A DNA stretch of 40,925 nt from the NCBI GenBank assembly GCA_903824045.1, contig CAIJVD010000012.1, forward strand, positions 1 to 40,925, in the 5' to 3' direction. Both the position numbers and the translations under genes were made by a program. The DNA is from an uncultured Chlorobiaceae bacterium. Lineage in GTDB: Bacteria; Bacteroidota; Chlorobiia; Chlorobiales; Chlorobiaceae. Positions 1 through 14,158 of this stretch are shown one piece after another (position 1 is the stretch's first letter; every line of letters starts with the position of its first letter). The notes below the pieces were generated by a model. That model saw only the letters and a program-made list of their open reading frames with translations. It did no database searches and was not told where the DNA came from.

Positions 1-87
1 AGGCCGCCAGAGCGGCACGTAAACAAAAAAGACTGGAAATGAGACAGAGTCTCGATTGCCACCAGATTTCGACAACTACAGGTAACA

Positions 88-582
88 TTAACTCGCTAAC
101 TCAACAGGGCAATTTCTCCATTTCCATCTGAGGCAAAACAGAACGTCAAGCGGATTGCTCGGATAGAGGTGGAGATCAAAGACCGGATTATTGGTTGAGT
201 TGAGTGGCAGACGACCAGCAAGGTAGTGGCTGCTTCCCTTATCTCCATAGAAGCGTCCAAAATAAAGCTGTGAGGCCCCAAGCGTATAGGTCTCAGTGTT
301 GCCAAAACCTACGGTCTGGAAACCGCCACCGCCTCCAAGTGCACCTGGCGCTTCGTTGCTAATAACCGTCCTGAAGATATAACCCTCTTCAAAGTCTACA
401 GCACCATTCAGGCGAAGCCTGTATGCATACTGGATATTGTCCTTGGTCTGATGGGCCGAATCATAGGAGCTGGATCGCAGGCGCACCGAGGCATCACCGC
501 CAATCTTCAACTCAGCGGCTGTTGCCGGTGATGCGTATGAAACTGCTGCAAGAACCGCAGCAAGTGATAACATTTTTTTCAT
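88..582 (-). pseudogene. Truncated outer-membrane porin-like protein (N-terminal part)
   Basis: This ORF has 164 codons. The first ~22 residues are a clear Sec signal peptide: a basic start MKK, a hydrophobic core, and likely cleavage after ATA before AELKIGG. What follows alternates in the manner of outer-membrane beta-strands (GGDASVRLR, YAYRLRLNGAVDFEEGYIFRTV), as in the single-barrel porins of green sulfur bacteria. Such porins normally exceed 350 residues. Here similarity seems to stop near residue ~147 (SNPLDV), and a short Cys/Trp-containing tail runs into a stop. None of the three minus-strand frames between the stop and position 1 continues a recognisable barrel, so I infer a truncated or rearranged gene. 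The start is supported by AAGGAAG about 7 bases upstream of ATG. Its leader carries a putative attenuator (654-826). A functional short protein cannot be excluded. Confidence 0.6.
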
Positions 583-645
583 GGTGTTCTTCCTTTTGTT
601 AAATGATTTGTTGGGGGTTGTGTGTTTACGAGAAAAAAATCCTGT

Positions 646-685
646 TAAAGAAAAAGCCGGCTCTCCATGGTGAGAAAGCCGGCTT
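646..685 (-). terminator. Hairpin plus U-tract in the porin leader (attenuator terminator)
   Basis: Read on the minus strand, AAGCCGGCT (677-685) pairs perfectly with AGCCGGCTT (654-662), with extra GAG/CTC pairing toward the loop. The downstream base run is TTTTTCTTT. This is the classic shape of a Rho-independent terminator. It lies 72 bases upstream of the porin ATG and 31 bases after the stop codon of the small Cys-rich ORF, so it would cut off transcription before the porin. No larger gene lies upstream for it to terminate, which makes attenuation the simplest reading. Confidence 0.7.
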
Positions 686-697
686 CAATAAGAGTCC

Positions 698-713
698 GCC
701 CGACTGACCGGGC
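698..713 (-). promoter_or_regulatory. Small hairpin between leader peptide and terminator
   Basis: GCCCG and CGGGC form a 5-bp GC stem with a 6-base loop immediately after the leader-peptide stop codon (716-718). It sits between the peptide ORF and the terminator hairpin, where a competing or pause hairpin is expected in a translation-coupled attenuator. A segment around 734-742 can also pair imperfectly with 688-695, so alternative folds are possible. The function is inferred from position only. Confidence 0.4.
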
Positions 714-715
714 AG

Positions 716-826
716 CTACTTCATAAATCCGACACTCCTCATGACGTCATCCGTCAGAAGACAACAACAACAACAGCTTGGCGAAGTGCCAGGAAGGTGC
801 AGTGCATGTGGTGTTGTTGTAATCAT
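716..826 (-). CDS. Small ORF with five consecutive Cys codons (putative leader peptide)
   Basis: This is a 36-codon ORF: ATG at 826-824, TAG at 718-716. AAGG lies 8 bases upstream of the start, which is good Shine-Dalgarno spacing. Residues 18-22 are five consecutive Cys codons (all TGT, positions 761-775), within SPSCCCCCLLTDD; the peptide ends RSVGFMK. It has no signal peptide, membrane segment or known domain. It lies directly upstream of a small hairpin, a terminator hairpin with U-tract and the porin gene, in the same orientation. Runs of the regulating amino acid's codons in a short ORF before a terminator are the hallmark of ribosome-mediated attenuation, and polycysteine upstream ORFs that sense cysteine are known in mycobacteria. 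The cysteine-sensing role here is inference. The Cys run is also a (TTG)n-type simple repeat, so chance is possible. Confidence 0.55.
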   Translation of the reverse strand: MITTTPHALHLPGTSPSCCCCCLLTDDVMRSVGFMK

Positions 827-1277
827 CAGAGTAACCTTGTTAATTTTTCGACTGCTCTAAAAAAGTCTATATCTTCTTTATTTACAAGCATATACCATAA
901 AAATACCCTGAATATGGTAGCAATTGCCCGCTTGCACTCTCCATTTGCCAATCCTTGCACGACCCGCTCTTTTCAATCAGCCACAGAGCACATATTCACG
1001 GAACAATAAAGTCCCTTATCTTGCAGAAATACAAGGATATACCGCAAATATACTGCAAACACGAGAGCTTTGTGACCCTCTCAAAATCGTCAGCAATCAA
1101 TGATGCCTTCAACGCTCACAGGGTCCGCCGCTCCCATACGGCAGGGTGTCGATCTAATCGGGACTTTTTTGGCTTTTTTACCTATATTTGGCGGGTCAGG
1201 AGTTTAGTCGGGACGCCCAGCTCAATCGTCCGCAATCACAACCATATGCCATACAGAGAGGGTTTGAAGGTACAGCC
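827..1277. other. Intergenic region between the leader ORF and aroK
   Basis: These 451 bases separate the divergent porin leader (minus) and aroK (plus). ORFs reported here are short and lack ribosome binding sites or recognisable domains. The right part is T-rich around 1166-1192, with TATATT-like sequence that could be the aroK promoter, but no convincing -35 partner is visible. No tRNA cloverleaf, CRISPR-like repeat or mobile-element end was seen. Confidence 0.4.
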
Positions 1278-4716: not shown

Positions 4717-7608
4717 ATGCATCCCCCCATGCAGAACCACAATGACAACAAACAATTGCGGCCAAATCTCTGTAACGAAATCTGTAACAGCCAGATCCAC
4801 ACTCTGTTTGACGCATTTCCCGAGTCAGTATGCATCATCGATCCGGAGGGCATCATCCTTGAGGCGAACGAAGCCTTTGCGGCCGAGTATGGCAAATGCG
4901 CAGTTGAATGGCAGGGTGCACGTATTTACCGATTACTGTCACCTGAACGCGCCGCAAACCTGAGCGAAAAGGTCAATGCCGTTTTCGTTGAGAAAAAAAA
5001 CCTGTCAATGGAGGAGGTACAGAACGAAAAAGTCCTCCTTCACTCGATCTATCCGCTCAGTGCCAATAACGGAGATATTGATCGCATGCTGATCACCACC
5101 AGGGATATTACGGAGTTAAGAAGTGCAGAAAGAAGCGTCATCAAGGAGAGGATATTCAGCCAGTCTCTTATCGAAAGCTTTCCTGGAACATTTTATATCA
5201 TTGATGCAGCTGGACGCATTATTGGGTGGAACGACAACTTGCGAGATGAAATCTTTGGCGTGTCGGAAATCGAGATGTCTGACACTTTGGCGCTGGATGC
5301 CATCCATCCAGACGACCGGCCGCGTATAGCTGAAAAGATCGCAAGCATTCTGACCAGAGGAATTAATGATACGGATGAAGCAAGGGTTCTGCTTCGAGGG
5401 GGACCGGAATACAGGTATCTCCTGCTGACGGGACGGCGAATCATGATTGACCAGAACCCGGTCCTTGTTGGATTAGGCATTGACATCACCGAACGACGGC
5501 AGGTGGAAGAAAAGCTGCGACAGAGCGAAGCTCGGTTCAGAAACCTTTTCGATGGCCATGCAGCAATCAAGATGGTTATTGATTCCGGTTCCGGCCGTAT
5601 CACCGAGGCAAACCAGGCGGCCGCAACTTTTTACGGCTGGCCGATTGAGGAGCTCTGCCGGATGAATATTCAGCAGATTAATACCTTGTCTCAGGCTGAA
5701 ATAAAGGCTGAAATGGCAATGGCTTTATCAGGAGAGAAACAGCACTTCTCTTTCCGGCACCGCCGCGCCGATGGATCTCTTCGTGATGTTGATGTGTTCA
5801 GCAACAGTATCACGATTGACGGCAAAGAGATGCTCTACTCAATTATCCAGGACGTTACCGATCGTAACCTTGCAGAAGCCGAAATCAAGCGTCAAAGCCG
5901 CGCGCTTCTGGCAATCAACAACTGCAATCATGCGCTGCTTCATGCAAAAAACGAACAGGAACTGTTGCAAAGAATTTGCTCCATCATTGTTGATACTGGC
6001 GGCTACAGGATGGCATGGGCTGGATTTGCAGAACATGATGACGCCAAAAGCATATCCATTGTTGCGGAGGCAGGGTTCTTCACCGCCTACGATCAGCATC
6101 GCAAGCTTACCTGGGCAGATGTTCCGCAAGGCAGAGGGCCTGCGGGAATTGCCATTCGCACCGCTCAGCCCTGTAAAATAAATGATATTCTCACCAATCC
6201 TCTTTTTGAGCCCTGGCGGAAGGATGCATTACATCATGGTTTTGCCTCACTCATAACCCTGCCACTGGTGGCAGATACTGAAACATTTGGGTTGTTGGGC
6301 GTCTATTCAGCCAGCCCTGATGCCTTTGACGCAGTTGAAACAAACTTCTTGATGTCGCTGGCCAATAATCTGGCTTATGGACTCAAAAATTCGCGAGATT
6401 CCGGGGCTAAAAAGATTGCTCTGGCAGAAAACGAAAAACTTCAGGACCAGCTTCAGCACGCCCAGAAAATGGAGATGCTCGGCCAGCTTGCCGGCGGCAT
6501 AGCACATGACTTCAATAATATGCTTGCGGTTATTCTCGGCCATTCAGAGATGGCACTCGAGGAGCCAGACCTTGCCCAACCGCTTCGTGCCGACATCAAC
6601 TCCATCCGCAAGGCTGCCATTCGCTCAGCCGACATGACGAACCAGCTTCTTGCCTTTGCCAGAAAGCAGTCAGTGCAGCCAAAAGTTCTCGAGCTGAACG
6701 CCGTTATAGAAAGTACACTTCCAGTTTTACATCGACTGATTGGCGAAAACATTACCCTGACCTGGAAGCCCGGAGGGGGTGAAGCATTGGTCATGATAGA
6801 CCCTGTCCAGATCGATCAGATTCTTGTCAATCTCTGCATAAACTCCCGGGATGCGATAGCCGGCGCCGGAACTATTTCTATTGAAACACAAAGGCTCTCT
6901 GTACGGGAAAATCAAATCCGGGATGGTTTTTCCTGTCTAATACCCGGCGAGTATCTAATGCTTATTGTTACTGATAATGGCAGCGGAATCAGCAAGACTG
7001 TCTTGCCGCATATCTTCGAGCCCTTCTTTACAACCAAGGAGATCGGCAAGGGAACCGGTCTTGGGCTCTCGACAGTCTATGGCATTATCAAGCAATCCCA
7101 GGGGTTTATCGACTGCCTCAGTGAGGTGGGAGAGGGGACTTCCATAAGGGTCTATCTGCCGAGAGTCAATCTCAAATCAGAAATTACCACACCGCAGCTA
7201 CCTGACACACCTCAAAGAAGTGATGCAACGATACTGCTGGTTGAAGATGAGCTGACTATCCTTACGCTCTGTAAAACCATGCTTGAAAAGAGCGGCTACC
7301 GGGTACTGAAAGCCTCGACTCCCGCTGAGGCTTTCAGTGTGGCCGAAGCATATAAGGGAGAATTTGAACTTCTCATCACGGATGTGATCATGCCCGAAAT
7401 GAACGGCTGCGAGCTTTCCAAAAGACTTCAGTTAACAAATCCCAATCTCAAAACTCTTTTCATTTCCGGCTATACCGCTGACGTTCTTTCCGATAGTGTT
7501 GGCTTTGACAGGGATACGGATATCTTGATCAAACCGTTCGGCACCAGAGCACTTACCGCCAAGGTATCAGAGCTTCTCCCCCCCCCCCCGCGTAGAGCGG
7601 TACGATGA
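4717..7608 (+). CDS. Hybrid sensor histidine kinase, PAS-PAS-PAS-GAF-HisKA-HATPase-REC
   Basis: The 963-residue protein has no transmembrane segment, so it is a cytoplasmic sensor. Domains in order: PAS ~28-145, PAS ~150-265, PAS ~270-385, a GAF-like domain ~395-560, a dimerisation/phosphoacceptor helix with LAGGIAHDFNNML (His at ~597), and an ATPase with an N-box (LVNLCINSRDAI), DNGSGI and a GTGLGLS G-box. A C-terminal receiver has the phosphoacceptor Asp at ~889 in LLITDVIMPEMNG. No output domain follows, so phosphate probably passes to a separate regulator. An in-frame ATG at 4729 is an alternative start; neither has a strong ribosome binding site. The gene ends in a run of 12 C (7578-7589) encoding four prolines nine codons before the stop. 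It stands alone and ends in a strong terminator. Confidence 0.9.
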   Translation: MHPPMQNHNDNKQLRPNLCNEICNSQIHTLFDAFPESVCIIDPEGIILEANEAFAAEYGKCAVEWQGARIYRLLSPERAANLSEKVNAVFVEKKNLSMEEVQNEKVLLHSIYPLSANNGDIDRMLITTRDITELRSAERSVIKERIFSQSLIESFPGTFYIIDAAGRIIGWNDNLRDEIFGVSEIEMSDTLALDAIHPDDRPRIAEKIASILTRGINDTDEARVLLRGGPEYRYLLLTGRRIMIDQNPVLVGLGIDITERRQVEEKLRQSEARFRNLFDGHAAIKMVIDSGSGRITEANQAAATFYGWPIEELCRMNIQQINTLSQAEIKAEMAMALSGEKQHFSFRHRRADGSLRDVDVFSNSITIDGKEMLYSIIQDVTDRNLAEAEIKRQSRALLAINNCNHALLHAKNEQELLQRICSIIVDTGGYRMAWAGFAEHDDAKSISIVAEAGFFTAYDQHRKLTWADVPQGRGPAGIAIRTAQPCKINDILTNPLFEPWRKDALHHGFASLITLPLVADTETFGLLGVYSASPDAFDAVETNFLMSLANNLAYGLKNSRDSGAKKIALAENEKLQDQLQHAQKMEMLGQLAGGIAHDFNNMLAVILGHSEMALEEPDLAQPLRADINSIRKAAIRSADMTNQLLAFARKQSVQPKVLELNAVIESTLPVLHRLIGENITLTWKPGGGEALVMIDPVQIDQILVNLCINSRDAIAGAGTISIETQRLSVRENQIRDGFSCLIPGEYLMLIVTDNGSGISKTVLPHIFEPFFTTKEIGKGTGLGLSTVYGIIKQSQGFIDCLSEVGEGTSIRVYLPRVNLKSEITTPQLPDTPQRSDATILLVEDELTILTLCKTMLEKSGYRVLKASTPAEAFSVAEAYKGEFELLITDVIMPEMNGCELSKRLQLTNPNLKTLFISGYTADVLSDSVGFDRDTDILIKPFGTRALTAKVSELLPPPPRRAVR

Positions 7609-7625
7609 GCGCGGTTTGAAAGCCT

Positions 7626-7666
7626 AAAAGAGAAGAGCCTCCTTGTGCAGGGGGCTCTTCTCTTTT
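7626..7666. terminator. Bidirectional terminator between the kinase gene and glnN
   Basis: A perfect 14-bp stem, AAAAGAGAAGAGCC (7626-7639) with GGCTCTTCTCTTTT (7653-7666), encloses a 13-base loop. A-rich and T-rich flanks on the two sides give a U-tract in both directions. It lies between the 3' ends of two convergent genes and can serve both. Confidence 0.85.
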
Positions 7667-7706
7667 AAATGCTGCCCTTTTTTGGCACAGCTTTGTATGC
7701 GGTTGT

Positions 7707-13553: not shown

Positions 13554-14158
13554 AGAACGACCGGCTGCTCATCATATTCACCAGAAACCCTGTGGCGGGC
13601 GAGGTAAAAACTCGCCTTGCGAGCTCCATTGGAGCCGAGAGTGCACTCGAAGTCTATAAAGCGCTGAGAGCACACACCGCTGCGGTCTGCAGAGAGCTCG
13701 ATGCAAAAAAAAGAGCCTGTTACTGCGGCTTCATTCCCACGAATGATATCTTTCTCACCAACGGCTTCAGCGCTACCCTTCAGGTGGGCGAAGAGCTTGG
13801 CGAAAGGATGCTCAACGCTCTGAGAGCGGGATTTGACGATGGATACACGAAAATCGTGCTCATTGGAACCGACTGCCTCGAAATTACCCCCCTTATCCTT
13901 GAGCAGGCATTCATCGCGCTTGAAGGGGCGGACGCAGTTATTGGTCCGGCACGCGATGGCGGGTTCTACCTGATCGGCATGAAGAGAGTCATCGAGGAGC
14001 TCTTTCTGGGAAGAGCGTGGAGCACCCCGGAGGTCCTCGCCGAAACCACCCTCACGCTCCGCTCGCTCCAGGCAGACCATGAGCTGCTCGAAGAGCTGTC
14101 GGATATCGATACTCTTGAAGACCTCAAAGCAAGCGCACTATGGCCCCTCAAACCATAA
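13550..14158 (+). CDS. Glycosyltransferase-like protein, TIGR04282 family
   Basis: The 202-residue protein starts at GTG 13550, overlapping the arsS stop codon. It has a nucleotide-diphospho-sugar transferase fold similar to CofC/DUF2064 proteins: the opening LLIIFTRNPVAGEVKTRLAS, the GTDCLEI metal-binding Asp region, and PARDGGFYLIGMK. The family is named rSAM/selenodomain-associated transferase 1 because it co-occurs with ArsS-type radical SAM proteins, which is the case here. It probably activates or transfers a sugar to the radical SAM product. Its 3' end overlaps the next gene by 19 bases. Confidence 0.88.
   Translation: MKNDRLLIIFTRNPVAGEVKTRLASSIGAESALEVYKALRAHTAAVCRELDAKKRACYCGFIPTNDIFLTNGFSATLQVGEELGERMLNALRAGFDDGYTKIVLIGTDCLEITPLILEQAFIALEGADAVIGPARDGGFYLIGMKRVIEELFLGRAWSTPEVLAETTLTLRSLQADHELLEELSDIDTLEDLKASALWPLKP

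Follow-up and report, generated by a model that had tools for sequence, protein, structure and literature searches.

A probable cysteine-sensing transcription attenuator ahead of porin and sulfate-transport genes in sulfate-assimilating, partly photoferrotrophic Chlorobia

Cysteine leaders in other bacteria and in Chlorobium

Classical attenuators (trp, his, leu, ilv) combine a leader peptide rich in the sensed amino acid with mutually exclusive antiterminator and terminator structures, and use the stalled ribosome as the sensor. For cysteine, a close parallel is the uORFC-8-2 motif, predicted upstream of cysS in Rhodobacterales, in which a short uORF with tandem Cys codons is followed by an intrinsic terminator, and which has been proposed to act by Cys-tRNA-sensing, ribosome-mediated transcription attenuation (PMC8632094). 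This motif controls cysteinyl-tRNA synthetase, occurs only in Alphaproteobacteria and carries its two Cys codons inside the first stem (PMC8632094). Cys runs in short ORFs before sulfur and cysteine genes are also found in mycobacteria, where such polycysteine uORFs, predicted earlier in PMC1262725, answer to cysteine according to PMC13236596 and PMC9094748 (citing Canestrari 2020); as described in these papers, they are leaderless, lack a conserved terminator and act on translation.

We analysed a 40,925-nucleotide stretch of DNA from an uncultured Chlorobiaceae bacterium (contig CAIJVD010000012.1 of assembly GCA_903824045.1; hereafter, the window), in which a Cys-rich leader precedes a porin gene, together with related loci of the genus. 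Chlorobium leaders resemble the classical attenuators in having a short ORF in which codons for one amino acid cluster (2–5 adjacent Cys codons in 51 leaders), an intrinsic terminator between this ORF and the controlled gene and, in the model set out below, the same stalled-ribosome design. Unlike them, they would sense cysteine, they precede genes for uptake (an outer-membrane porin and a sulfate ABC transporter) rather than for biosynthesis, and they sit behind a second regulatory site. Compared with uORFC-8-2, their 2–5 Cys codons lie upstream of the stems, a conserved regulator element is present, and the downstream genes are a porin, Sbp or an ABC operon, not cysS. In contrast to the mycobacterial uORFs, they possess an intrinsic terminator and a predicted transcriptional switch, with the element and a probable promoter located well upstream of the ATG. 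The Chlorobium leaders are of the same mechanistic kind as known and predicted cysteine attenuators, and differ from these in host, targets and anatomy.

A known RNA family was excluded as the identity of the leader, as Rfam covariance models, T-box and riboswitches included, gave no match at gathering score in window positions 560–1100 and only two matches at chance level. A previous reading of the window, made from its letters alone (the sequence-only reading), had proposed ribosome-mediated attenuation with Cys as the sensed amino acid and knew of no description in Chlorobi; in the literature that we searched, leader-peptide attenuation by cysteine in Chlorobia was likewise not described. 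The proposal itself is supported by a conserved Cys run and terminator, by covarying terminators and by constrained Cys codons, and we conclude that the leader is, with high probability, a cysteine-sensing ribosome-mediated transcription attenuator of sulfate-assimilating, partly photoferrotrophic Chlorobia.

The leader ORF and its conservation

All features named by the sequence-only reading sit on the minus strand of the window (Table 1). There, its 36-codon ORF with a spaced AAGG and five TGT codons was recovered (ATG at 826–824, TAG at 718–716), as were the 5-bp hairpin just after the stop codon, which lies inside 715–696, and the porin-type start placed 72 bases past the terminator hairpin, which corresponds to an ATG at 582, ~70 nt beyond the terminator. 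The GC-rich terminator hairpin with a U-tract is also present, but its stem is longer than the 9 bp originally described. A run of five Cys codons was expected 0.00 times per window, as estimated from 100 Markov samples of the window. The possible promoter box GATATA was missed by a consensus promoter scan, and a recognisable Shine-Dalgarno motif is absent at 42 of the 51 leader ORFs, so that efficient translation of the leader ORF is not self-evident.

Table 1. Positions of the leader, its signals and neighbouring features in the window, and of linked RNA genes at related loci.
Feature	Position	Strand	Remarks
End of insertion sequence interrupting porin gene	1..141	.	Inverted repeats CTGTTTTG/CAAAACAG
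Porin, N-terminal part, predicted to be controlled by the leader	142..582	-	Remainder on another contig beyond the insertion sequence; full-length relative matches Pfam Porin_4
Intrinsic terminator stem, then U-rich tract	653..686	-	Scan: 14 pairs, 7 G-C, T-rich tail
Predicted antiterminator 3' arm, overlapping terminator 5' arm	671..689	-	Fold with upstream RNA covered by stalled ribosome
Hairpin GCCCG-GTCAGT-CGGGC, directly after leader stop codon	696..715	-	Nested inside predicted antiterminator
Leader ORF, 36 codons, MITTTPHALHLPGTSPSCCCCCLLTDDVMRSVGFMK	716..826	-	Comparable ORFs at the equivalent place in 50 other loci
Predicted antiterminator 5' arm, within last 8 codons of leader ORF	719..741	-	Fold with upstream RNA covered by stalled ribosome
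Five consecutive TGT (Cys) codons, codons 18-22 of leader ORF	761..775	-	In relatives, purifying selection acts on the Cys codons
AAGG, possible Shine-Dalgarno site of leader ORF	835..838	-	8 nt before ATG
GATATA, possible -10 box of a putative leader promoter	868..873	-	17 nt after the element's GGTATA
Conserved upstream DNA element TACCATATTCAGGGTATTTTTATGGTATATGCTTG, likely binding site of a putative regulator, overlapping promoter	885..919	-	
Linked tRNA-Cys	L182:7671-7745; L178:13655-13729; L185:13168-13242 (window's genome, C27); L226:5195-5269; L155, L143, L157, L130		
Conserved RNA between porin and tRNA-Cys	L185:13246-13338 (-); L178 ~13560-13655; L182 ~7570-7668; 25 more loci		

The window starts inside the porin gene because an insertion sequence sits at ~141; the leader itself is intact. 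The sequence-only reading had allowed for a broken porin copy, with the leader possibly intact at paralogs. Window positions 1–147 match, at 99% identity, the end of a further contig of this genome (C16:1–147), and the end of the insertion sequence is matched by an inverted repeat on the end of contig C27, which carries the remaining porin; the insertion sequence, with an apparent 2-bp target duplication, breaks both the gene and the assembly. The same genome carries a second Cys leader, ahead of its sulfate transporter, with the Sbp gene on contig C27 preceded by an ORF that begins MNVPMATKKHTIILSCDERCCRCMRL.

A DNA search of 41 genomes revealed two conserved blocks whose order and spacing are kept in many members of the genus, one, of ~50 bp, upstream of the ORF and the second around the terminator. 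The upstream block is an element of type TACCATATTNACGGTATTTTTATGGTATATGCTTG, likely the binding site of a regulator overlapping the promoter. Sites matching its pattern occur in 42 of 61 genomes of the genus and, among 84,980 bacterial and archaeal species, almost only in Chlorobiaceae, with carriers including Chlorobium ferrooxidans DSM 13031, which has both leaders, and the Chlorobium sp. isolates L227, L304 and L442; behind the few matches outside the group (L115, L132, L136, L148, L170), no leader was found. A short ORF with several Cys codons follows at a similar place downstream of 53 of the 68 distinct element sites, its ATG mostly 76–83 bases after the element start, and 51 of these 53 ORFs, from Chlorobium genomes and MAGs, contain a run of 2–5 adjacent Cys codons. 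The layout common to these 51 loci is element, ORF, Cys run, terminator and gene. A terminator lies behind the leader ORF in 50 of them, the exception (L121) having lost its terminator 3' arm, and the terminator is placed 69–72 nt past the final Cys codon in the 18 Sbp-type loci and 67–80 nt past it in 32 of the 33 non-Sbp loci. The Cys run and terminator are thus conserved upstream of other porins, where the sequence-only reading would have been contradicted by their absence, and a chance origin of the leader features is excluded because they are conserved in 50 related leaders.

When loci were retrieved by the Sbp gene, with the element not used, 16 of 18 readable upstream regions, that of the window's own genome among them, contained a terminator and an ORF in which Cys codons adjoin; Sbp leaders also persist at several loci whose element has a decayed third half-site. 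Degenerate leaders were also seen, with displaced stops (L141, L163, L165) or without a start codon (L130), and one sulfate-assimilating genome (G076) has the element before Sbp, but the leader is absent. Further elements include a degenerate second copy in the window (1054–1033, minus strand, 2 mismatches), ~150 bp upstream of the main element, and tandem copies ~200 bp apart in two genomes (G015, at L063, and G042); at one locus (L215; G008:C29, ~7785–7500, minus strand), a further Cys-rich frame, CGTTGTTGTTGTCC, lies behind an element with a repetitive spacer. As candidate regulators of the element, LysR-type proteins were rejected, with mostly one weak LysR-like HTH match per genome that does not track the element; Rrf2-type proteins number about two in every genome, pathway-less ones included, so their presence cannot identify the regulator. 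One Rrf2-type gene adjoins an hcp-like gene.

Elements with no leader behind them stand ahead of a second Sbp gene (Sbp2), sulfite reductase-CysH (SiR-CysH) genes and some tRNA-Cys genes, as would be expected if regulation lay with the element alone, a constant fraction of transcripts passed the terminator and the Cys run were incidental, or a trinucleotide repeat. We consider this explanation very improbable, since both TGT and TGC occur in the Cys runs, which stay in one frame across 51 loci (Cys fraction of leaders 0.118 in frame vs 0.024 and 0.037 in the other frames), and since leaders survive where the element has decayed. A coincidental repeat as the origin of the Cys run is excluded by its conservation and its mixed TGT and TGC codons.

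Selection on the leaders was estimated from 36 pairs of related sequences. For Cys codons, dN was 0.092 and dS 0.267, compared to 0.197 and 0.227 for all other leader codons, with a bias in that leaders were recognised by their Cys codons, though retrieved by the element or the downstream gene; Cys codon usage was TGT 136 and TGC 78. As judged from these sequences, the two sets of rates together with the codon mix indicate that the amino acid is kept at the Cys codons, not the nucleotides, and that the remaining peptide is close to neutral, a pattern expected of a codon-made sensor and not of a functional peptide. A functional small Cys-rich peptide (metal-binding, redox or modified), made from the same promoter with the hairpin merely as its terminator, would account for the conserved ORF and Cys residues and for the terminator directly behind them, yet it appears unlikely: outside the Cys codons the peptide is almost free of amino-acid constraint, the two leader classes (porin-type and Sbp-type) have almost nothing but the Cys run in common, and no peptide family matches the leader peptide. 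It also gives no role to the fixed distance between Cys run and terminator, or to the pairing of the ORF end with the terminator arm described below.

Terminator, predicted antiterminator and proposed mechanism

In the window, the terminator folds with −23.2 kcal/mol (z = −6.6), and a hairpin resembling the one after the stop codon is present in most porin-type leaders. Among 31 porin-type leaders, the terminator is 91.4% paired, compared to 88.3 ± 0.4 in shuffles, and four of its pairs show compensatory changes, providing the covariation that the earlier reading had suggested looking for; in the 18 Sbp-type leaders, it is 97.5% paired. Such a covarying intrinsic terminator, found between ORF and gene in nearly all loci, argues against a translational attenuator of the mycobacterial type, in which stalling or termination at the uORF would act on the downstream gene at the level of translation, leaving its transcription unchanged. 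Mycobacterial Cys-rich uORFs ahead of sulfur genes do act in this manner, according to PMC13236596 and PMC9094748 (citing Canestrari 2020), but ~130 nt separate the end of the Chlorobium leader ORF from the controlled gene, and at nearly all loci this gene is equipped with a Shine-Dalgarno site of its own, making translational control a highly improbable explanation here.

Transcription attenuation would require an alternative to the terminator. With the ribosome placed on the Cys codons and the upstream RNA covered, a fold that the earlier reading had also proposed, an antiterminator enclosing the post-stop hairpin is predicted in the window at −34.7 kcal/mol, compared to −23.2 kcal/mol for the terminator hairpin. 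Across the family, predicted blocking of the terminator arm is 0.55 with the ribosome on the Cys run and 0.29 with the ribosome at the stop codon, and shuffling the ORF end lowers the stalled value to 0.46 (p = 0.001). Paired positions of the antiterminator changed on both sides in four cases in the Sbp set, against a shuffle mean of 1.4 (reached by 6 of 500 shuffles), and in 13 cells in the porin set, against 6.3 (reached by 0 of 500); one position in the latter set has switched from C-G to U-A. An antiterminator that excludes the terminator is thereby predicted, strongly in the window and moderately across the family. Unlike the Cys run and the terminator, which are directly observed, it is graded as a prediction from folding and partial covariation, because its register varies between subclades, the proportion of paired cells in the porin set is not above shuffles (71.3% vs 70.5%) and the duplex z-scores are weak (mean −0.68).

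In the mechanism that we propose, transcription would begin downstream of the conserved site, to which a regulator may bind, and a ribosome would translate the leader ORF. When Cys-tRNA is plentiful, this ribosome would reach the stop codon and mask the last codons, and with them the antiterminator 5' arm, allowing the terminator to fold and leaving the downstream gene untranscribed. When Cys-tRNA is scarce, it would stall on the Cys run, leaving the last ~eight codons free to pair with the terminator 5' arm; with the terminator blocked, RNA polymerase would continue into the porin in the window, or into the sulfate ABC transporter at the sister loci. Transcription would most likely pass the leader only when the cell is short of cysteine, a response open to experiment in C. 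ferrooxidans DSM 13031, which is in culture.

Downstream genes, sulfate assimilation and linked tRNA-Cys

About two thirds of the 51 loci precede porins, and 18 precede a sulfate ABC transporter (Sbp-CysT-CysW-CysA), the target families being Porin_4, the sulfate-binding protein TIGR00971, CysT TIGR02139 and CysA. At one locus (L149), the leader stands ahead of an ABC operon whose binding protein is NMT1-like and may serve sulfonates. One cluster (G015) contains the porin together with a sulfite-reductase-like gene, APS/PAPS reductase, CysD, CysN/C, siroheme genes and the transporter. Presence of the element agrees with that of CysH (APS/PAPS reductase) in 54 of 61 genomes (38 with both, 16 with neither, 4 and 3 discordant; Fisher p = 1.8e-8), and experiments have established sulfate assimilation for both C. 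ferrooxidans and C. phaeoferrooxidans (PMC5498476).

Cysteine as the signal is supported because the targets include the sulfate transporter as well as the porin; the amino acid that would be sensed is the product of the controlled pathway, with the sulfate transporter and the sulfate-assimilation genes leading to cysteine. The sequence-only reading had tied the porin to cysteine or sulfur status in a sulfide-oxidising phototroph, of which the cysteine signal stands, whereas the hosts are Chlorobium that assimilate sulfate, with several photoferrotrophs among them, and not typical sulfide users (PMC5498476). From linkage and co-occurrence, we infer that the porin belongs to the cysteine pathway, where it probably passes sulfate, as a sulfate entry pore. 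The leader links to sulfur uptake an outer-membrane porin that would otherwise stay anonymous, and it suggests that the import of nutrients across the outer membrane can be gated by amino-acid attenuation. It also offers a convenient marker for the regulon of sulfate import in photoferrotrophic Chlorobia, which serve as models for primary production on the early Earth when sulfur was low (PMC5498476).

Additionally, a tRNA-Cys gene (anticodon GCA) is located right after the porin or directly behind the element in sulfate-assimilating Chlorobium. Of 16 genus genomes searched, 11 contain the linked tRNA-Cys sequence; it was not detected in any of the four genomes of this set that lack CysH. A second, ordinary tRNA-Cys was not found by ARAGORN in about a fifth of the window's genome. 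Between porin and tRNA-Cys lies a conserved RNA of ~85–100 nt, with a long closing stem (CATCCGGGC/GCCCGGATG), a U-tract and an almost invariant inner motif, GTGTGTGCATCT, that matches nothing in Rfam at gathering score and is possibly a regulatory terminator for the tRNA. We tentatively entertain, as a doubtful extension of the attenuation model, a closed cysteine circuit peculiar to sulfate-assimilating Chlorobia, in which the element might switch the whole sulfate pathway, Cys-codon attenuators might gate import, and the regulon would carry its own tRNA-Cys preceded by the conserved RNA; if this were true, the regulated genes would also set the level of the sensed tRNA. The unit of RNA and tRNA-Cys is duplicated in tandem at three loci (L159, L167, L173). 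One tandem tRNA-Cys copy (L183:15489–15564, with the same copy in L173) has the anticodon CTA, which would read amber UAG, and is labelled tRNA-Pyl by ARAGORN; it is probably a degenerating duplicate.
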